NCBI GenBank assembly: GCA_002716585.1
Contig: PBBL01000056.1
Coordinates: forward strand, 1-39,987
Reading direction: 5' to 3'
Origin: Myxococcales bacterium
Lineage (GTDB): Bacteria > Myxococcota_A > Bradymonadia > Bradymonadales > GCA-2716585
Length of the DNA stretch: 39,987 nucleotides
The first letter of the stretch is position 1, and every line of letters begins with the position of its first letter. Shown in pieces: positions 25,906 through 36,082 of this stretch. Both the position numbers and the translations under genes were made by a program. The notes under the pieces were generated by a model that was not told where the DNA came from, did no database searches, and was given only the letters and a program-made list of their open reading frames with translations.

Positions 25906-26075
25906 ACCCCCGCCAATACGACCTCCTCCTCTTATCTCGGCGCCTATGCCCACACCGCACCGCCCAGCTCACGGGTTCGCTCCCTCATGTGATCATCAAC
26001 GAAATAAAACTGAATAAATCGAGCCCTTCAGGGAAACACAGGAGTGGCGCACGGCCACCACTTCCGACCAGGGAG

Positions 26076-26163
26076 CCGCTCATGACAAGACCCGAGCCCG
26101 ATGAAGAGGGCGTGGTGTGGACCTGCCACGTACCTTGCGAGACGCCCCAGGCCGCCAGGGCGA
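26076..26163 (+). repeat. 88-bp direct repeat, copy 1
   Basis: Identical to 27102-27189 except for one synonymous base (C at 26093, T at 27119). It covers 6 bp before the ATG and codons 1-27 of the membrane protein gene. The match ends abruptly on both sides. Confidence 0.95.
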
Positions 26164-27065
26164 GGCAGACTACGTCACCGACCTTCTTCATTATCCTGGC
26201 GGTGTTGACGCCTCTGCCGCTGGTGTTGGCTGAGTTGCTCTCACCTGAACATCTCTTCGGCCTCATTGAGTACTCCAGACTGCACACTGAGCCATTTCAT
26301 GAGATGCTCGACCTCATCTCCAAAACCGGCTCAATCGCACTTCTCACGTCACTAATTTTAATAACCATTCACCACTTCTTCTACTTCAAGACGGACCTCA
26401 CGGGCACTTCCCCAACGGGATGGATTGAGCTGACCTGCCACCTGACGTCCAACCACTTCACCGCCATCAACACCGCTCACGAGGTACGGCTTGAAAGTTC
26501 ATGGGATAAAGCCTGGCACTATCAGAAGACCAACTTCCAGTTCTTCGATCGAGGCGCTGAGCAAAATGCATTCCTCCTCTGCACCACCCTCACTCCCCCC
26601 GAACCTTCCAGTGAAGCTCCCCGGGATGTTGTGGCGTGCCCGGTTGATCAGGCCAACGAAGAGCGTGTCATCGCCTACCTGAACAGCGTTGGAGTAGACC
26701 GAAACGCTGCCTTTGAAAAAGAGCACCCTGATTGGCGGGTTCAAGCAACCGTGTGGCGCTCACCATTCAACTTCACCCCAGACACATACAAATCTATAGA
26801 AAAAACCCACTCAGCAACAACAATACTTACTTGTGTCACAGTTGGATTTATCGGCTACGCATCAACACCAGGTATTTTTATCGCCGTCTCGGCGATCGGG
26901 GGTGTGCTTGTGCACTACTGTAGAGCATTATTTGCGGCAACGCTTGTCGCACCAGGCACACCCAAAGACTACAGAAAGCTACACCAACACCTGACTTCAG
27001 GTTCATCACTGCTACCAGCATATATCATGGGGTTGATTATCACATATGGTTTAACATACCGATAA
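26082..27065 (+). CDS. Membrane protein, paralogue 1, YcxB-like core
   Basis: 327 residues from ATG 26082, preceded by AGGGAG; the longer frame to 25989 is not supported. A 27-residue N-terminal segment (MTRPEPDEEGVVWTCHVPC..) leads to two membrane helices (FFIILAVLTPLPLVLAELL; SIALLTSLILITIHHFFYF). A cytoplasmic domain follows (PTGWIELTCHLTSNHFTA.. SSWDKAWHYQKT.. FQFF) with the helix-strand pattern of YcxB-like domains, then two or three C-terminal helices. The last third is strikingly AT-rich compared with its surroundings, suggesting foreign origin. Function unknown. The N-terminus is shared at DNA level with the next gene. Confidence 0.7.
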   Translation: MTRPEPDEEGVVWTCHVPCETPQAARARQTTSPTFFIILAVLTPLPLVLAELLSPEHLFGLIEYSRLHTEPFHEMLDLISKTGSIALLTSLILITIHHFFYFKTDLTGTSPTGWIELTCHLTSNHFTAINTAHEVRLESSWDKAWHYQKTNFQFFDRGAEQNAFLLCTTLTPPEPSSEAPRDVVACPVDQANEERVIAYLNSVGVDRNAAFEKEHPDWRVQATVWRSPFNFTPDTYKSIEKTHSATTILTCVTVGFIGYASTPGIFIAVSAIGGVLVHYCRALFAATLVAPGTPKDYRKLHQHLTSGSSLLPAYIMGLIITYGLTYR

Positions 27066-27101
27066 AGCCGACTTCACCACATCTATCACACACCAAAAGA
27101 A

Positions 27102-27189
27102 CCGCTCATGACAAGACCTGAGCCCGATGAAGAGGGCGTGGTGTGGACCTGCCACGTACCTTGCGAGACGCCCCAGGCCGCCAGGGCGA
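27102..27189 (+). repeat. 88-bp direct repeat, copy 2
   Basis: Second copy of the 5' segment found at 26076-26163, with 87 of 88 bases identical, starting just before the ATG at 27108. Immediately upstream the two copies differ: copy 1 has a good ribosome-binding site and copy 2 has AAAAGAA instead. Confidence 0.95.
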
Positions 27190-28424
27190 AGTTCACGTGG
27201 CTGCTGTTCGCTTTCGCCACAGCGCTCGCTTTGATGCTGCTGCCCCTCGCCCTCGACGCGTGGGTTCCACCGGAGCGTGTATTCACTGCAATCCAATTTG
27301 CCTTGCCTGAATCGAATGCAGCTTCAATCCATGCATTCTTTTTGAAGCCGTTAATCGCGATCTTATTTTTACCCACGATGTTCATTGGTTTATTCGCAAT
27401 CCAGGTAAAGCTCGACGCTCGCCGCACCTCCCCGACGGGGTGGCTTGAGCTGACCTGTCACCTGACGCCCACCCACCTGACCGCGACCCGGGTGAATCAG
27501 AACGTGCTGTTCGAGCACTCCTGGGACAACATCGGGCACTACCAGAAGGTCAACGCGTGCTTCTACAACAAGAACGCTCGCACCCCTGCCCTCCTCCTCT
27601 GCGTCACGTGCTCCAACCGTCGCTCAACTGTCCGGTGTCCGGTCCCCAAAGAAGACGAGGCGCGGGTCATGGCGTACCTGGACGGCATCGGGGCGTACCG
27701 AAACCTCGAATGGGAGGCGTGCTCCAACGTGGTTCTTCAAAGAGAGGCGTGGCTTGGCAAATCGTCGCCTGCCAGATATTGGCGCAAGCTCAAATACGTG
27801 CTGCCTACGCCTGTTGTCCTTGGGTTCGTCTTGATCGGCCTGCATAGGGCATTCAATGCACCGAACGCCCAGCCAGGCGATGCGCTCATGCTGCTGCCGC
27901 TGCTGCTGATACCAGGAGGCGTGTGTTTCGCGCTCTTGAAGACCTACGCACCCAGGACGACCGCAACCGCGCCGCCTCAACCGGGCTCAGCTCAGCACGT
28001 GGTTCACCGGCTGGGCGGGCTCGGGCAGGTCGTCGTCGCCGAGGCGAGTGCGGCACTCGATCTCCAGCATGGTGGTGAAGGCGCCCAGGGAGAGGTCGTT
28101 GTCGTCGTACCCGAAGGGCTCCTCGATCTCGTCGCCGATGGCGTCGAGGGCGAAGAAGCTGTACGAGATGAACAGGACGACGATGGGGGTGAGCAGCCCG
28201 ACCGTGTCGTAGATGCCGAGCGGCAGGGCGAAGCAGTAGATCCCGACGATGCGGTGCATGAGGATGGTGTAGGCGAACGGGATCGGGGTCTTCTTGATCC
28301 GCTCGCAGCCGCCCTGGATGTCCGTGATGGTGGTCAACGACTGCTCCAGCATGCTGAGGTGGTAGACGTTGACCCAGCCGTCGAGCCAGGCGTCGTGGAG
28401 GCGCTCGCCCATCGCGTGCAGTAG
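27108..28424 (+). CDS. Membrane protein, paralogue 2, with 3' run into the bestrophin gene
   Basis: Homologous to the preceding gene along its length: the same 27-residue start, two helices, the PTGWLELTCHLTPTHLTA / HSWDNIGHYQKV core and C-terminal helices (LPTPVVLGFVLIGL; ALMLLPLLLIPGGVCFALL). Homologous sequence ends near 27960. The frame has no stop there and continues 438 bases antisense to the bestrophin gene, to 28424. The extra ~146 residues are Val/Glu/Asp/Gly-rich and look like antisense translation, so the natural stop may have been lost or lies elsewhere. The real product is probably about 290 residues. Function unknown. Confidence 0.6.
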   Translation: MTRPEPDEEGVVWTCHVPCETPQAARAKFTWLLFAFATALALMLLPLALDAWVPPERVFTAIQFALPESNAASIHAFFLKPLIAILFLPTMFIGLFAIQVKLDARRTSPTGWLELTCHLTPTHLTATRVNQNVLFEHSWDNIGHYQKVNACFYNKNARTPALLLCVTCSNRRSTVRCPVPKEDEARVMAYLDGIGAYRNLEWEACSNVVLQREAWLGKSSPARYWRKLKYVLPTPVVLGFVLIGLHRAFNAPNAQPGDALMLLPLLLIPGGVCFALLKTYAPRTTATAPPQPGSAQHVVHRLGGLGQVVVAEASAALDLQHGGEGAQGEVVVVVPEGLLDLVADGVEGEEAVRDEQDDDGGEQPDRVVDAERQGEAVDPDDAVHEDGVGERDRGLLDPLAAALDVRDGGQRLLQHAEVVDVDPAVEPGVVEALAHRVQ

Positions 28425-29788: not shown

Positions 29789-29901
29789 GGGGCTCGCCTC
29801 TCAGGGGGGGCCATGGGGCGGCCTCCGCCCCGAACTCCCCGTGTGCTTACACGAACCCTGGCGTTGAGTTCAACTCCTGAGCGCGCCGCCCGCCGCTTCA
29901 G

Positions 29902-29917
29902 TAGCCCATATGGGCTA
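29902..29917. promoter_or_regulatory. palindrome TAGCCCATATGGGCTA
   Basis: Perfect 16-bp palindrome in the 840-bp gap between the divergent hydrolase and first signalling kinase. The identical core occurs at 33621-33636 before the second kinase. The string CCCATATGGGCTATGGCTG (29905-29923) is repeated as CCCACGTGGGCTATCGCTG (29933-29951), 28 bp further on. Confidence 0.55.
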
Positions 29918-29932
29918 TGGCTGACGCTGTGA

Positions 29933-29951
29933 CCCACGTGGGCTATCGCTG
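29933..29951. promoter_or_regulatory. second palindromic site CCCACGTGGG
   Basis: A 10-bp palindrome (29933-29942) inside a 19-bp segment that matches 29905-29923 at 16 positions. A looser relative, TCCATTCGGGCCA, occurs at 29990-30002. Together they look like spaced binding sites for one protein. Confidence 0.45.
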
Positions 29952-30116
29952 GGCCAGCGCCTCACCCAGGCGACGCGATGGCTCCGTGATCCATTCGGGC
30001 CACCCCGGGTGATCGCGTCGCCGCGCCAGGCCACCGCGCCGCCTATCTTCCCAAGCCTCGGAGCGCCTCCTCGGCGACTGCTCACCCCCTGAGAGACTCG
30101 AACACCTCACCGGGTG

Positions 30117-30276
30117 CCCCAGATCGGCCAGCCAAATACCCCAGATCGGTCAGCCAAACACCCCAGATCGGCCAGCCAAATACCCCAGATCGGCCATCCC
30201 AACACCCCAGATCGGCCCATCACATGACCCAGATGGGCCACCAACATAACCCAGGTCGGCCACTCAAATGACCCAT
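30117..30276 (+). repeat. 22-bp tandem array, seven units plus partial
   Basis: Units begin at 30117, 30139, 30161, 30183, 30205, 30227 and 30249, with a partial one at 30271, all exactly 22 bp apart. Each starts (C/A)CCCAGATCGGCCA with small changes and ends in an A-rich CCAAATA-like half. The core CCCAGATCGGCC is related to the palindrome core CCCATATGGGC nearby. Two-helical-turn spacing places every unit on one DNA face. The remaining gap, 30277-30629, is AT-rich with TGACACAATTGACAC near 30443-30457 and nothing else defined. Confidence 0.9.
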
Positions 30277-30629
30277 CAGCGGAAGAAAAACCGGCTTCAA
30301 AATCCAATTTGTATAAAAAATTCCGTCCTAGCTAGAACCCGCCACAGGCACCCAAAGTCGCCACGAACACCCTCCTGATCGACCTCTAGGCCACATCCCC
30401 CCCCTGAAGGCGAACCCAACAAACACTAAACAAAAAATCAGGTGACACAATTGACACTTAAACCGTCCGTAGCCTTCCACCATAATAACTCACGATGGCT
30501 ATCTAAGATGGCCTGAACAAGCTAAACCCAACCCCGCATACACAACCCAGGCCATGTCGTCGACGCGACATGGGTTCACAGCAAAGGATACCCGACGAGG
30601 TGTCCAACCCTGCCTCCTGAGGCAACACG

Positions 30630-32330
30630 ATGGGCCAGACACAGACACGGTTCAAGAGCCGAGAGCCAAGCCAGGCCAGACCCCTCATCGGACAGACCGT
30701 CCTGGGCGCGTTCAAGATCCTGGAGCTGCTCGGTGAGGGCGGCTTCGCCAAGGCATACCTCGCCAAGCAGCTGGGGACCGAGCGCAGGGCGGTCGTCAAG
30801 ATCGCCCACCCCCACCTGATCGCGGAGCACGGCGACATCATCCGCCAGTACTTCGCCAACGAGCTGAGGGCGTCGACGCGGGTCAAGCACCCCAACCTGG
30901 TCACCGTGTACACCGCAGGCTCAACGCGCGACGGGCTGCCCGCCATCGCCATGGAGTACGTCGACGGGCTGACGCTGGAGACGCTGCTCAAGACCCGCGC
31001 CCCGCTGCCGCCGTCGATGATGAGCGCGGTGTTTGGCCAGCTCCTCTCCGCGATCAAGGCGCTCCACCAGGTGGGCGTGATGCACTGCGATCTGTCCCCG
31101 GACAACATCGTCGTTCAGCTCAACGCCGATGGCCCGCGCGCGACCGTGCTGGACTTCGGCATCGCGCAGTTCGACGACGCCCGCTCCAGAACCGGCTGGG
31201 TCCTCGGGACGCCGGGCTACACGGCCAACGAGCAGATCAAGGGGAGCCCGCGGCTGGCGTCGGATCTGTTCAGCCTCGGCGCCATGATGTGGTGGGCGGT
31301 GACGGGGCGGGAGTTCCTTGAGGGCGCCCCCACCCTGCAACAGGCCTTCTTCATGCAACAGGAGGTGCCCGCGATCCCCAGGACCGTGCATGGCCGGGAG
31401 GTGCCGGAGTCGATCGCGCAGCTCCTGCGGAGGCTCCTTGAGCCGGACTGGAAGCGCCGCATCAGCGCCGAGGCGGTCCTCAACCTCTGGGACGACCTGA
31501 TGCGCGCCTACGCGACCTTCGCACGGCCCCGCGCGGCCCGCCCGGCGAAGCCGCGCAGGCAGGCGACCCGGTCGTCCCTGACGCACAGCGAGGTGAGGCC
31601 GCGCTCCAACGCGCCGTCGCGCGTGCTGGACCTGCTCATCGTCTGCGATGAGCCCGAGGAGTGGGACCTGCTGGAGAAGTACCTCCACGAGCGCTGCGCG
31701 GCGACCTTCTCCAGCACGCTCGCCTCGACCCTCTCGACGCTGGAGCGCCACGCCTTCGACGCCGTCGTGATCGCCTCCGGCCACCGGGGGATCGGGAGCT
31801 ACCTGATGGTCAAGCAGCTCCGCGCGCGCTGGGCGACCGTGCAGGGCAACCCGATGCTCTGCATGATCGCCGACGACAACGACGCGACGGATCGCTGGAA
31901 GCAGGCGGGCGCCGACCTGCGCCTTGAGAAGACGTGGCAGCTCCGGGCGCTGACCCAGCAGCTGTCGATCACCTTCGCGAGCATCCGCGCGTTCCAGACG
32001 CTGGACCACGCGACCTTCCGCGACGCCTTCATCCACGATCAGCACCAGCTCAGGGACGACATCAACGCCTTCATCGGCTGGACCCCGGAGGCGCTGATGA
32101 CGCTCGACGATCGGATCGCCGCCGATGAGCCGACCGAAGCGACCTGCGCGCAGCTGAGCGCGGTGTGCCGCGCCGTCGGCGCCAGCCACATGGAGCGGCT
32201 CGTCACGATGATCTGTCGCCTGAGCGCGCCCGACTTCCGCGAGCAGCGCCGCGGCCTCCTGGGCGAGCTGGAGACGCAGTACGCCGCAGCCGTTCAGGAG
32301 CTGCACCGCTTCCGCAAGGCTCACAAGTAG
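30630..32330 (+). CDS. Ser/Thr kinase fused to degenerate receiver and HPt-like domain
   Basis: 566 residues. Kinase domain (~20-290): GEGGFA loop (35-40), Lys57, catalytic loop HCDLSPDN (Asp154, Asn159; the usual Arg is Cys153), DFG (175-177), and TANEQ where APE/PEQ is normal. A basic linker (~295-330) leads to a receiver-like fold (~332-446) with acidic residues Asp340/Glu341 and Lys434, but Ala383 where the phospho-Asp belongs. The last ~100 residues are helical and align with HPt domains, with AQLSAVCRAVGA in the place of AHxLKGxxxxxGA: the phospho-His is Ala507. So it is an active-looking kinase attached to two non-phosphorylatable two-component modules, probably used for protein binding. 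No membrane segment. It is the first of four co-directional genes. Confidence 0.88.
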   Translation: MGQTQTRFKSREPSQARPLIGQTVLGAFKILELLGEGGFAKAYLAKQLGTERRAVVKIAHPHLIAEHGDIIRQYFANELRASTRVKHPNLVTVYTAGSTRDGLPAIAMEYVDGLTLETLLKTRAPLPPSMMSAVFGQLLSAIKALHQVGVMHCDLSPDNIVVQLNADGPRATVLDFGIAQFDDARSRTGWVLGTPGYTANEQIKGSPRLASDLFSLGAMMWWAVTGREFLEGAPTLQQAFFMQQEVPAIPRTVHGREVPESIAQLLRRLLEPDWKRRISAEAVLNLWDDLMRAYATFARPRAARPAKPRRQATRSSLTHSEVRPRSNAPSRVLDLLIVCDEPEEWDLLEKYLHERCAATFSSTLASTLSTLERHAFDAVVIASGHRGIGSYLMVKQLRARWATVQGNPMLCMIADDNDATDRWKQAGADLRLEKTWQLRALTQQLSITFASIRAFQTLDHATFRDAFIHDQHQLRDDINAFIGWTPEALMTLDDRIAADEPTEATCAQLSAVCRAVGASHMERLVTMICRLSAPDFREQRRGLLGELETQYAAAVQELHRFRKAHK

Positions 32331-32385
32331 AGATTCAGAAACACGCGGCGCGACATCGCCGCGACGACCACGCCAGGTGCCACCG

Positions 32386-33561
32386 ATGACCACCGCTTCA
32401 CAGACCATGCAGTTCGATTGGCGCGGCCTCTCCTGCCCGGAGCCCATCCTCAAGATCGCCCGCGTCGCCCGAGACCTCAAGGACAGCGGGGGGCTCCTCC
32501 AGATACTCGCCGACGACGAGGCTTTCCCCGCCGATCTGGAGAGCTGGTGCCGCAGCGCCGGGGCGTCGCTTCGCAAGCTGACGCGCACCTCCGACCACTT
32601 CGTCGCCCTCATCGCGCCGCCCGTGAAGATCGCCCCCAGCACCCCGCGCCCGAGCGCCCAGCCCTTCGCCTCGGCCCCGGCCGCCGCGCCCGAACTCGCC
32701 GCCACCCCCGAACTCGCCACCACGCCCGGCCCCCTCGTGGCCAGGAAGCCCGCGGCGGCCGGGGCCGATTCACCCGCGGCGGCCGCGGGCGCGACCTCAG
32801 CCAACACGATCACGCTCAACCTCAGCGGGCTCGACCCCGATGAGCGCTCCCTTCGGCTGGAGGCGTTCTCCCACTCCGGGTTCAACGGCGTCACGCTGGA
32901 GATCTCCGCCGACGCGCCGACCTTCTCCAACGAGCTGACCGCCTGGTGCCACACCCAGGGGCACAGCCTCCTGCGGCTCACGCAGGAGGCGGGCGTCACC
33001 CGCGCGTCGGTCGCCCTCAGCGCCAACGCCGCCGCGAGCAACCTCCCGGTGCCCATGGCCCAGGCCCAGGCCCACAAGCGATGCACGCTGCTCGTCCTCC
33101 ACAACGACCTGGAGGCCCTGCTCGCGGCCTTGATGGTCGCCAACGCGTCGGCCTCCATGGGGATGCGCGTGACGATCTTCTTCTCCTTCTGGGGCCTCAA
33201 CCTGCTCCGCGCCCAGCGCCGCGAGCTGCTCCCCGGCGATGAGCCGCCCTCGCTCATCCAACGGCTCATGGCCTGGATGATGCCCCGCGGGCCTCACAAC
33301 CAGAAGCTCGGCCGCATGAACATGGGCGGCGTCGGGACCGCGCTCATGGGCTCGCTCATGAAGCAGAAGTCCGTCATGGACCTCCAGCAGCTCATGGAGA
33401 GCGCCCTGGAGCAGGACGTCCGCTTCATGGTCTGCACCACCAGCATGTCCATCATGGGCATCACCCGCGGCGACCTGGCCTATCGCGATAAGCTCGAATA
33501 TGGCGGTGTCGCGGCGTTCTCACAGGAGGCTTCAACCTCCGACGTTCACCTGACATTTTGA
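32386..33561 (+). CDS. TusA-TusA-DsrE2 sulfur-carrier-like fusion protein
   Basis: 391 residues from ATG 32386 with AGGTG (32375-32379) upstream. GTG 32377 is an alternative. The N-terminal domain is TusA/SirA-like with the persulfide-carrying motif CPEP (17-20) in FDWRGLSCPEP. A second TusA-like domain (~141-210) has GLDPDE in that place and has lost the Cys. The C-terminal domain (~228-391) is of the DsrE/DsrE2 type: CTLLVLHNDLEALLAALMVANASASMGM, FFSFWGLNLLR, and the catalytic-type cysteine in VCTTSMSIMGI (Cys350). An Ala/Pro-rich linker joins the TusA parts. TusA-DsrE2 fusions take part in sulfur trafficking; being sandwiched between two Ser/Thr kinase genes is unusual. Confidence 0.85.
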   Translation: MTTASQTMQFDWRGLSCPEPILKIARVARDLKDSGGLLQILADDEAFPADLESWCRSAGASLRKLTRTSDHFVALIAPPVKIAPSTPRPSAQPFASAPAAAPELAATPELATTPGPLVARKPAAAGADSPAAAAGATSANTITLNLSGLDPDERSLRLEAFSHSGFNGVTLEISADAPTFSNELTAWCHTQGHSLLRLTQEAGVTRASVALSANAAASNLPVPMAQAQAHKRCTLLVLHNDLEALLAALMVANASASMGMRVTIFFSFWGLNLLRAQRRELLPGDEPPSLIQRLMAWMMPRGPHNQKLGRMNMGGVGTALMGSLMKQKSVMDLQQLMESALEQDVRFMVCTTSMSIMGITRGDLAYRDKLEYGGVAAFSQEASTSDVHLTF

Positions 33562-33614
33562 TCAACACAGCATAATAAACTGAATTTCAACACTCAATCC
33601 CAGAATAAAACTGG

Positions 33615-33642
33615 CCACCATAGCCCATATGGGCTATGGTGG
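33615..33642. promoter_or_regulatory. 28-bp perfect palindrome before second kinase
   Basis: Perfect two-fold symmetry about 33628/33629, with the core TAGCCCATATGGGCTA identical to that at 29902-29917. It lies in an AT-rich 140-bp gap between the DsrE2 gene and the second kinase. It could be an operator, or a hairpin in the transcript of the upstream gene. Confidence 0.65.
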
Positions 33643-33703
33643 TGACACAAGCGAGTCATGAATGAGTCTTCTAGCGCACCAACCATCATTCAGGGCAAGT
33701 CAT

Positions 33704-34795
33704 ATGTACCACGAGCGCTCAGGACGAGCGCTCCGATCCAAGCCAGGCAGGCACATTGAAAGCAAGCTGAACCGCCACAACATGAAGTCAGCCAACGCCC
33801 CATGCCCGCCCGATCTGATAGGACGCACCGCCCTCGGCGCGTTTGAGCTTCAACGCTCGATCGGGGAGGGCGGCTTCGCCACCGCCTACCTGGCGCGTCA
33901 GCTCTACGTGGAGCGTCAGGCGGTGGTCAAGATCGCCCACCCGGACCTGATGCACGGGGCGCGGGGTGAAGCGGTGCGCCGCGCCTTTCAGACCGAGGCG
34001 CGCGCGCTGGGTCGGCTCGCCCACCCCCACGTCGTCACGCTCTACCTCGTCGGCGAGGAGGGCGGGCTCCCGGCGATCGCCATGGAGTACGTCAACGGCA
34101 TGTCGCTGGGGCGGCTTTTTCACCACCACCCGACGTTGAACGTTCATTGGATGACGCAGCTGTTCGAGCAGCTCATCTCGGCGCTGGTGATGCTGCGGCG
34201 CGCGCGGATCGTGCACCGCGACATCACCCCGGACAACGTCCTGGTCGAGATCGACGCGGACACCCACCACCTGAACGTGAAGCTGTTCGACTTCGGGCTG
34301 GCGCTGCTCGACGGCGAGCAGCCCCGACGCTCCGGGGTGACCGGCACCCCGCGCTACATCGCCTACGAGCAGTTTCAAGGGGCCGCGTCCGACAAGACCG
34401 ACGTCTTCAACCTGGGCGCGTTGATGTGGTGGGCCTTCACGGGCGAGGAGTTTCTCGCGGAGGCCAACGATCTCTCCAGCACGCTGCTGCTCCAGCAGTG
34501 CCAACCGCGCAGGCCGCTGGGCCAGGACGGGCGCCTCCTGCCTCGGGAGATCGAGGAGCTGCTCGCCCAGATGCTCTCCCCCAACCCGGCGCGCCGCCCG
34601 GGGATCCACGACGTGCAGCGCCGCTGGCCGGAGCTGATGCGTCGCTGGGCCGAGCACCACCGCGAGGGGCGCCGCCGTCAGCAGCGCCGCTCCAGCGAGA
34701 TCCCCTGCATCGAGCCCACGCCGCCGACCCAGGAGGGGCCGACGACGACGCCTCCGTGCTCGGTGGAGCAGGCCCACCCCCACTCCGTGAGGTAA
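33704..34795 (+). CDS. Ser/Thr protein kinase, paralogue of 30630 kinase domain
   Basis: 363 residues from ATG 33704, chosen because AGGG (33692-33695) lies 8 bp before it; ATG 33662 and ATG 33782 remain possible. The kinase domain has GEGGFA, Lys76, HRDITPDN (Asp173, Asn178), DFG (196-198) and YIAYEQ where APEQ is usual, the same kind of change as in the upstream kinase. Sequence shared with that kinase (IG.T.LGAFEL, GGFA.AYLA.QL..ER.AVVKIAHP, LPAIAMEYV.G) shows common descent. The C-terminus is Arg-rich and then Pro/Thr-rich, without a membrane segment. The next gene begins 3 bp after the stop. Confidence 0.88.
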   Translation: MYHERSGRALRSKPGRHIESKLNRHNMKSANAPCPPDLIGRTALGAFELQRSIGEGGFATAYLARQLYVERQAVVKIAHPDLMHGARGEAVRRAFQTEARALGRLAHPHVVTLYLVGEEGGLPAIAMEYVNGMSLGRLFHHHPTLNVHWMTQLFEQLISALVMLRRARIVHRDITPDNVLVEIDADTHHLNVKLFDFGLALLDGEQPRRSGVTGTPRYIAYEQFQGAASDKTDVFNLGALMWWAFTGEEFLAEANDLSSTLLLQQCQPRRPLGQDGRLLPREIEELLAQMLSPNPARRPGIHDVQRRWPELMRRWAEHHREGRRRQQRRSSEIPCIEPTPPTQEGPTTTPPCSVEQAHPHSVR

Positions 34796-34798
34796 AGC

Positions 34799-36082
34799 GT
34801 GGAGCAGGACACCCCCATCCTCATCGTGGATCACGATCTCGACCGCGCCTACACGAGCGCCGACATGATCCGCCAGCGGCTCGACCTCGACGTCTTCGCG
34901 ATGCACGACCACGCGCAGGCCTGCGCGTGGATCCAGCGGAACGAGCCGCAGCTCGTGCTGCTGGAGGTGCCGTCGTCCCCGACGGAGCCGTTCGAGGTCC
35001 TGAGGCACCTGCACAACACCTGGCCCGGCACCCCGGCGATCCTGACGCTCAGCGAAGACTCGCCGCGCCTCAACCTGCTCAGCCTGCCGCAGCTCAGCCG
35101 CCCGTTCACCGAGCGCGAGCTGCTCCGCGAGGTCCACTACGTCATCCGCTCCGGCATCGGGGACACCCTGTTGACCGACCTGCTCATGAGCCACGCGCAG
35201 TTCGGCGCCTCGGGCAGCGTCCACATCCGCTCCCTCGACGACCACGGCGAGGTCGGGTTCGCGAGCGGCGAGCTGATCCACGCCGGGACGCGGGAGCTGA
35301 TCGGGCGCGACGCGCTCGCCTCCATCCTGTCGTGGCGGCAGACCCGGGTGTCGAAGCTCAACCCCCTCATCCCCAGGACGACCATGAACACCGAAGACGC
35401 GGAGGGGTTGCTCCGCTTCACCCTGAAGACCCATCACTCGCGACCGGTCCCGAGCCCGCAGACGCTCGCGGACACGACGCAAGACACCGAGAGCCCCTCA
35501 TCGCACCCGCTCCAGGCCCTGCTCGACACCCTGGACGACGACGATGAGCTGTTCTCCTATCCACCCATCACTCTGGACGAGGGCGCGTTGGACATCGACG
35601 TCATCGTCACGGGTGATGACATCGAGACGCTGGACGTGGGGGCCTTCCTCGGAGATCTGCCCTCCTTCAGCACCACCAACCCCGGGGTCGCCCCCCGCAC
35701 CAAGGAGAGTCCGTTCATGAGCAACAACATCAACGCGAGCCTCGACAAGTTCAAATCCCTCAACGGCTACGTCGGCGTCAGCCTGGTCGACTCGGAGAGC
35801 GGCATGATGCTCGGCAGCGACGGCGGCGGCAGCATCAACATGGAGGTCGCCGCGGCCGCCAACTCGGAGGTCATCAAGTCCAAGCGGCAGGCGATCAAGC
35901 GCCTGAAGCTCAAGGAGGACATCGACGACATCCTGATCACCCTCAACAACCAGTACCACCTGATCCGCCCCTTCAGGAAGCGCCCGGCGCTGTTCTTCTA
36001 CCTGGTCCTCGACCGCTCCCGCTCCAACCTGGCGCTCGCCCGCATGGAGCTGAGCGACGTCGAGGAGGATCTGGAGCTGTAA
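34799..36082 (+). CDS. Degenerate receiver - DUF4388/PATAN - Roadblock/LC7 protein
   Basis: 427 residues from GTG 34799, with GAGGT just upstream. Residues 1-118 are receiver-like (ILIVDHD), with Glu56 at the phospho-Asp position and Arg101 for the conserved Lys, so it may mimic a permanently phosphorylated state. Residues ~119-190 match DUF4388/PATAN domains (LLTDLLMSHAQFGASGSVHI, GEVGFASGELIHAGTRELIGRDALASILSW). A long acidic linker (~215-300, with DDDDELFSYPP) leads to a C-terminal Roadblock/LC7 domain (307-427: GYVGVSLVDSESGMMLGSDGG). LC7 proteins such as MglB regulate Ras-like GTPases. The architecture suggests an adaptor between signalling and a GTPase not present in this window. Confidence 0.86.
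   Translation: MEQDTPILIVDHDLDRAYTSADMIRQRLDLDVFAMHDHAQACAWIQRNEPQLVLLEVPSSPTEPFEVLRHLHNTWPGTPAILTLSEDSPRLNLLSLPQLSRPFTERELLREVHYVIRSGIGDTLLTDLLMSHAQFGASGSVHIRSLDDHGEVGFASGELIHAGTRELIGRDALASILSWRQTRVSKLNPLIPRTTMNTEDAEGLLRFTLKTHHSRPVPSPQTLADTTQDTESPSSHPLQALLDTLDDDDELFSYPPITLDEGALDIDVIVTGDDIETLDVGAFLGDLPSFSTTNPGVAPRTKESPFMSNNINASLDKFKSLNGYVGVSLVDSESGMMLGSDGGGSINMEVAAAANSEVIKSKRQAIKRLKLKEDIDDILITLNNQYHLIRPFRKRPALFFYLVLDRSRSNLALARMELSDVEEDLEL
35702..36082 (+). other. possible internal start giving stand-alone Roadblock protein
   Basis: AAGGAG (35702-35707) lies 9 bp before an in-frame ATG at 35717, exactly at the junction of the acidic linker and the LC7 domain. Translation from here would give a 121-residue protein, the usual size of free Roadblock/MglB-type proteins. 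It is a stronger initiation signal than that of the full-length GTG start. Confidence 0.45.

Follow-up and report, generated by a model that had tools for sequence, protein, structure and literature searches.

A Ser/Thr kinase gene paired with a multi-TusA-DsrE2 fusion gene across a bacterial phylum: a possible sulfane-sulfur switch

Introduction

TusA and DsrE2 have a known role as sulfur carriers that supply enzymes. According to two papers (PMC4175335, PMC6335251), clusters of the rhd-tusA-dsrE2 type have been described alongside Dsr or Hdr sulfur-oxidation enzymes. Here we describe a gene for a TusA-DsrE2 fusion, termed Tus, that directly follows the gene of a PknB-like Ser/Thr kinase, termed KinA. 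Both genes lie in the window, a 39,987-nucleotide (nt) stretch of DNA that makes up a whole contig (G000:C56) of a Myxococcales metagenome-assembled genome (MAG) with 91 contigs and a completeness of 65.6%. An earlier note on this DNA had reported four co-directional genes, encoding KinA, Tus, a second kinase akin to the first (KinB) and a protein with REC, PATAN and Roadblock domains (D), and had proposed that they form an undescribed system. The four genes were confirmed on the + strand between 30630 and 36082, with these domain types. Of the proposed system, the kinase-Tus pair was found to be conserved across the phylum, but the four-gene set did not hold as a unit.

The rhd-tusA-dsrE2 clusters of Allochromatium, Acidithiobacillus and Metallosphaera use the same three protein families as the loci studied here, with the CPxP cysteine of TusA and the cysteine of DsrE2; a rhodanese gene lies directly downstream of Tus in 10 of 18 assessable loci. 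However, the constant partner here is a Ser/Thr kinase, whereas those on record are associated with Dsr or Hdr sulfur-oxidation enzymes, and TusA and DsrE2 are fused here, usually as one to three cysteine-bearing TusA units plus a pseudo-TusA. Additionally, dsrA was found over the cut-off in none of the 19 genomes that carry the fusion (Hdr and LbpA were not searched for). Four weak dsrA matches lay below the cut-off, and the model also gave below-cut-off matches in 8 of 14 control genomes. With no carrier over the cut-off, Dsr-type sulfur oxidation was rejected.

Fusions of the oxidoreductase-rhodanese-TusA-DsrE2 type (P0101-P0103), which we take to be CoA-disulfide-reductase-like, resemble Tus in that TusA and DsrE2 are part of one polypeptide, and they include a rhodanese domain. 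Unlike Tus, in which a domain scan detected no FAD/NAD oxidoreductase domain, they carry such domains, and a kinase gene was directly upstream in 0/8 loci of this type examined. In the DsrE2 tree, the kinase-linked domains are separated from seven outgroup rows, three of them of the oxidoreductase type, with support of 100/100; the L043 domain sits on a very long branch. The pairing of a kinase with TusA did not come up in searches of open-access full texts, which leave out most subscription papers. The parts belong to known families, and the system that they form is what is new.

Conservation of the kinase-Tus gene pair

The distribution of Tus was assessed in 57 genomes of the class and 377 genomes of the phylum. 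In the phylum search, 41 genomes matched alignment A3 at an E-value of 1e-20 or better; since A3 was built from kinase-linked fusions, this search favours kinase-linked relatives. The fusion class was taken to be the A3 matches with E-values of about 1e-70 or lower, to which a fragment in genome G197 was added, and this boundary was drawn after a gap in the search results was visible. The multi-TusA-DsrE2 fusion class so defined is present in 19 of the 377 sampled genomes. At 18 of its 21 loci a kinase gene is located directly upstream on the same strand, and these represent 18 genomes, 17 genera and 9 families when counted by the taxonomy codes of the genome set. The distance between the kinase stop and the Tus start, with starts estimated by a script, ranges from -32 to +83 nt, and the two genes overlap in 8 of the 18 cases. 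At loci L118 and L120, the gene adjoining Tus encodes nothing but a kinase-tail-type domain, and both genomes also have a kinase-Tus locus. In the 19th carrier genome (L123), the fusion begins at the contig end. The G005 locus is split over two contigs, one with kinase and TusA and the other with DsrE2 and rhodanese.

Other DsrE2 relatives in the phylum were used as a control class, comprising 22 loci from all remaining genomes but G039 (21 of 22). A kinase gene was directly upstream in 1/22 control loci, and at another (L146) the kinase is downstream instead. Eight of the 22 encode oxidoreductase-type proteins of 814-890 amino acids (aa); apart from these eight, a CPxP TusA encoded in frame with DsrE2 was seen at none of the control loci, which supports the class boundary. 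The conserved core is a two-gene module, a PknB-like kinase gene upstream of a multi-TusA-DsrE2 fusion gene, often followed by a rhodanese gene. The earlier note had made its proposal depend on co-occurrence outside close relatives, and this was observed for the kinase-Tus pair (18 genomes) but not for the four-gene set in the genomes sampled. The single control locus with an upstream kinase, in G350 (L134:7970-12995), has the three functions in separate genes: a kinase open reading frame (ORF) of 1369 aa, then tusA, which overlaps the kinase gene by ATGA, then dsrE2. It is an unfused version of the arrangement.

Among named genomes, the fusion class accounts for 7 of 17 loci (two from one MAG, and one the split part of G005), and the titles of the MAGs concerned read Myxococcota, Myxococcales, Pseudomonadota or proteobacterium. 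None of ten TusA/DsrE2 loci of other phyla (Chloroflexota and Dehalococcoidia, Clostridia, Gastranaerophilales, Symbiobacteriaceae) was matched by the kinase queries within the flanking DNA examined. In a protein collection, 103 clusters matched Tus at 1e-30 among the 7,992 best-sharing candidates scored; 98 of them combine TusA and DsrE2, two have DsrE2 only and three also have oxidoreductase domains. Where organism names are given, these are Nannocystaceae, Polyangiaceae, Myxococcales, Myxococcota, Deltaproteobacteria and Enhygromyxa salina.

Domains and cysteines of Tus

Tus is encoded at 32386..33561 (+) and is a fusion of a TusA unit with its cysteine in the motif RGLSCPEPIL (about 32410-32613), a Cys-less pseudo-TusA (about 32884-33033) and a DsrE2 domain with the conserved cysteine (about 33076-33552). 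These features recur in the relatives. The DsrE2 cysteine was kept in all 20 aligned domains, and between one and three CPxP TusA units with the cysteine are present in 17 of the 18 fusions that are complete or nearly so. In 16 of the 18, a Cys-less TusA-like unit stands ahead of DsrE2; the exceptions are L122 and L127, and the units in L034, L118, L119 and L120 are weak matches. Pfam Rhodanese was called in all four downstream proteins tested, and all ten downstream rhodaneses have a Cys in the active loop (three read by eye).

Tus-linked kinases and their tails

KinA (30630..32330, +) comprises a PknB-like kinase domain (about 30714-31484), a degenerate REC-like region (about 31635-31964; Pfam 0.004, below the cut-off) and an HPt-like helical tail that lacks the His (about 32007-32324). 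A gap of 55 nt separates it from the Tus ATG at 32386. KinB (33782..34795, +; alternative start 33662) begins 220 nt after Tus and has no tail domain. The catalytic Lys, Glu, HRD-Asp, Asn and DFG-Asp are present in both kinases. The two share 44% identity over the kinase domain and pair as sister sequences in the best tree (support 87/88, branch not starred), and KinB is probably a local duplicate. The earlier note had pointed to a non-APE end of the activation segment in both kinases (NEQ, YEQ); loss of the Pro of APE was seen only in the window and was rejected as a hallmark of the system. With the PASTA-kinase model NF033483, the window kinases scored 153.1 and 148.4 bits against a cut-off of 450; in this they differ from PknB-type PASTA kinases, as the kinases of the system do in carrying a REC/HPt-like or unnamed tail.

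Of the 20 Tus-linked kinases, 19 have retained the K/E/D/N/D catalytic residues. Type I kinases, including KinA and KinB, form one clade in the kinase tree (100/99), and type II kinases are placed elsewhere in two groups. Constraining all 20 Tus-linked kinases to one clade against 11 control rows was marginally rejected in the approximately unbiased (AU) test (p 0.046). Recruitment to Tus of kinases from more than one lineage is probable on these trees, if marginally so. The kinase is also duplicated in G022 (100/100), and the duplication in the window probably occurred independently. Other local variants were noted. In G024, what is left of a further Tus-linked kinase, a truncated N-lobe (L035:6911-7306), lies just upstream of the intact copy, and the Tus-linked proteins at L128:6122-8419 and L129:9466-11814 each have two kinase domains, the second with the lower score.

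Three kinds of tail were distinguished. One is REC plus HPt-like, another has only the HPt-like part, and the third is an unnamed domain marked by the motifs FGDMHV and LVSTHxN (alignment A8). This unnamed 'GDMHV' domain travels with the sulfur relay. When E-values up to 10 were allowed, Response_reg was matched in 3/7 and Hpt in 4/7 members with the REC plus HPt-like tail (best 2.8e-7 and 1.7e-5, respectively), and profile comparison of this tail with the REC of alignment A5 gave a probability of 93%. The KinA model brought up kinases in fold searches, and the HPt-like reading of its tail is based on sequence. The phospho-acceptor Asp is absent from the KinA receiver, which reads AVVIAS (by eye, alignments A5 and A7), and is kept in one of seven type I tails, that of L127. 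None of the seven has a His at the aligned HPt place (by eye, A7), which was located by what we take to be the HPt phospho-His motif. A phosphorelay through REC and HPt was rejected given the missing Asp and His, the Asp of L127 being the exception. The type II tail was likewise rejected as a receiver, with a probability of 2% in profile comparison with REC and no such Pfam match.

Proposed mechanism and alternatives

We propose that the kinase-Tus module is a switch responsive to sulfane sulfur, with the activity of the kinase set by the sulfur load that its partner Tus carries, a reading to which we assign a probability of roughly 0.5. A rhodanese, either the module's own or one encoded elsewhere, would charge the TusA cysteine, from which sulfur would pass to the cysteine of DsrE2. 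The Cys-less pseudo-TusA may provide docking. The tail of the kinase, either the REC/HPt-like form mostly without phosphosites or the 'GDMHV' domain, would read Tus by binding and not by phosphotransfer, and kinase output would follow this reading. In the window's genome, the kinase was probably duplicated and the REC-PATAN-Roadblock adaptor added, with both units probably under one operator-binding regulator. More tentatively, the module can be described as a persulfide-gated Ser/Thr kinase: sulfane sulfur would be the signal, a kinase with dead two-component modules or the unnamed domain would read it, and sulfur transfer and protein phosphorylation would be coupled in a single co-translated complex, which probably evolved repeatedly within the phylum.

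The kept cysteines and the rhodanese imply that sulfur chemistry is important here, and the short distances or overlaps between the genes suggest that kinase and Tus work in proportion to each other. Tail-type domains that stand alone next to Tus (type II only) hint at the tail as the site of contact, and the absence of phosphosites suggests that it works by binding. Together these points lead to the idea that the kinase is set by the sulfur state of Tus. If this is true, TusA and DsrE2 would become signalling parts through a phylum-wide pairing with Ser/Thr kinases. The kinases of the phylum, most of which to our knowledge have no known input, would gain a testable one.

Several observations weigh against this proposal. 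Contact between kinase and Tus and the direction of information flow are inferred, as is each step after gene order. No rhodanese match lies directly downstream in the window and in seven other loci of the 18, and both TusA units in G025 are without Cys. The Tus-linked kinase at L121:1641-3464 lacks the HRD-Asp and DFG-Asp while its Tus keeps the cysteines, so kinase activity is not the output in every case. The starred, well-supported branches of the kinase tree alone would permit one kinase origin. Regarding the tails, the type II tail is recognised neither by Pfam nor by profile comparison with REC, and the lone tail domains beside Tus are type II only, not KinA's type. The REC region of KinA is not confidently folded in the structure model. 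Its tail is poorly conserved, and a search with the tail alone matched only itself, so that the tail families were built from the genome loci. Finally, the window's MAG is incomplete, as noted above, and so are several further carriers.

The main rival, which we consider unlikely though the strongest of those weighed, reverses the direction: the kinase would control the relay by phosphorylating Tus or the rhodanese, and would in this way regulate how sulfur reaches a biosynthetic or oxidative acceptor. The order of the genes and the kept cysteines also fit this direction, and the DsrC/TusE family, a TusA-side acceptor, was found in 6 of the 19 carriers. However, a DsrC/TusE match is absent from the other 13 and dsrA was over the cut-off in none (Hdr was not searched for), and the two loci with only a tail-type domain beside Tus suggest that contact without phosphorylation is possible.

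It seems improbable that the TusA and DsrE2 folds were reused without sulfur transfer, as a scaffold or ligand sensor for the kinase. The Cys-less pseudo-TusA in 16/18 fusions and the complete loss of TusA cysteines in G025 would fit such a role, but the cysteines of DsrE2 (20/20) and CPxP TusA (17/18) are kept, and 10/18 loci have a downstream rhodanese with the active-loop Cys.

Control region

Two palindromic operator-like sites are located 5' of KinA, TAGCCCATATGGGCTA at 29902..29917 and TGACCCACGTGGGCTA at 29930..29945, followed by an array of seven operator-like sites with a CCCAGATCGGCCA-type core at an exact spacing of 22 nt (30117..30274). A perfect palindrome of 28 nt, CCACCATAGCCCATATGGGCTATGGTGG, lies between Tus and KinB (33615..33642) and includes the common operator core; no strand is assigned to any of these sites. 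The core common to palindromes and 22-nt units resembles CCCA-NN-T-S-GG-Y-Y-A, and the palindrome before KinB is the upstream palindrome extended to 28 nt. The related palindromes that the earlier note had seen before both kinase genes are borne out in that they have this core in common. In a search of the whole genome with CCCANATSGGCYA, 11 matches were obtained, compared to 0 for the reversed control. Eight of them are at the window locus, where they represent six places because two palindromes count on both strands; the three others (C20, C57, C85) appear to be situated within ORFs. The sites are probably the operator array of one regulator serving two transcription units, as judged from their common core. 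The palindrome at 33615 also scores as a minus-strand terminator-like stem, which gives a rival reading of it. A sigma-70-like promoter was looked for and not found.

Protein D and other neighbouring genes

D (34799..36082, +) starts 3 nt after KinB and consists of a degenerate receiver (about 34799-35152), a PATAN/DUF4388 domain (about 35168-35440) and an MglB-like Roadblock/LC7 domain (about 35711-36070), with an MglB-like Roadblock fold in the final 120 residues. It shares this fold with MglB and other Roadblock-LC7 GTPase regulators but differs in that its Roadblock domain is fused to a degenerate receiver and PATAN. The receiver reads LLEV where LLD is usual (by eye on the alignment), and the usual Asp is also absent from the nearest full-length relatives, P0105-P0108 (by eye). 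The earlier observation that the receiver-like parts of both regulatory proteins, KinA and D, are without the phospho-acceptor Asp was upheld by eye on the alignments. The REC-DUF4388-Roadblock family of D is represented in Polyangiaceae, Sandaracinus and others.

The four window genes could also be one pathway with a Roadblock-regulated small GTPase as output, the working idea of the earlier note. The operator core common to both transcription units, the 3-nt distance of D from KinB, its MglB-like C-terminal domain and a second neighbourhood of Ser/Thr kinase, LC7 and PATAN in the same genome would all fit. Outside the window, however, the loci examined showed no D homologue next to Tus, the best matches of D in relatives are on other contigs, and 5 of 6 loci of D relatives examined showed no kinase match. 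A four-gene system as a unit was rejected because D is local, and a pathway of this kind is doubtful. D is an accessory outside the conserved core, tied to it in the window only by operon position and operator. The only evidence for an LC7-regulated GTPase as output is D, and such an output would concern the window's genome. Chance adjacency in a kinase-rich genome, where 82 kinase matches in 4.25 Mb make a random neighbour a kinase in an estimated ~2% of cases, has a negligible probability, as it is contradicted by 18/18 assessable genomes in 9 families compared to 1/22 control loci.

Further observations concern Roadblock domains and the remainder of the window. The Roadblock domain of D, with a YHLIRP motif, matches hypothetical proteins of ~280 aa in Acidovorax and Diaphorobacter and one of 335 aa in Comamonas. 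Six tandem Roadblock domains of the D kind were found on one G022 contig (L085:1-7119), and elsewhere in the window's genome a second kinase adjoins Roadblock and PATAN matches (L046:6968-10707). At 25989-28424 of the window, two ORFs have the stretch MTRPEPDEEGVVWTCHVPCETPQAARA in common, followed by later similarity, and are likely a tandem duplicate; the one that was scanned showed no confident Pfam domain, and the first of the pair has a low GC content at third codon positions (GC3).

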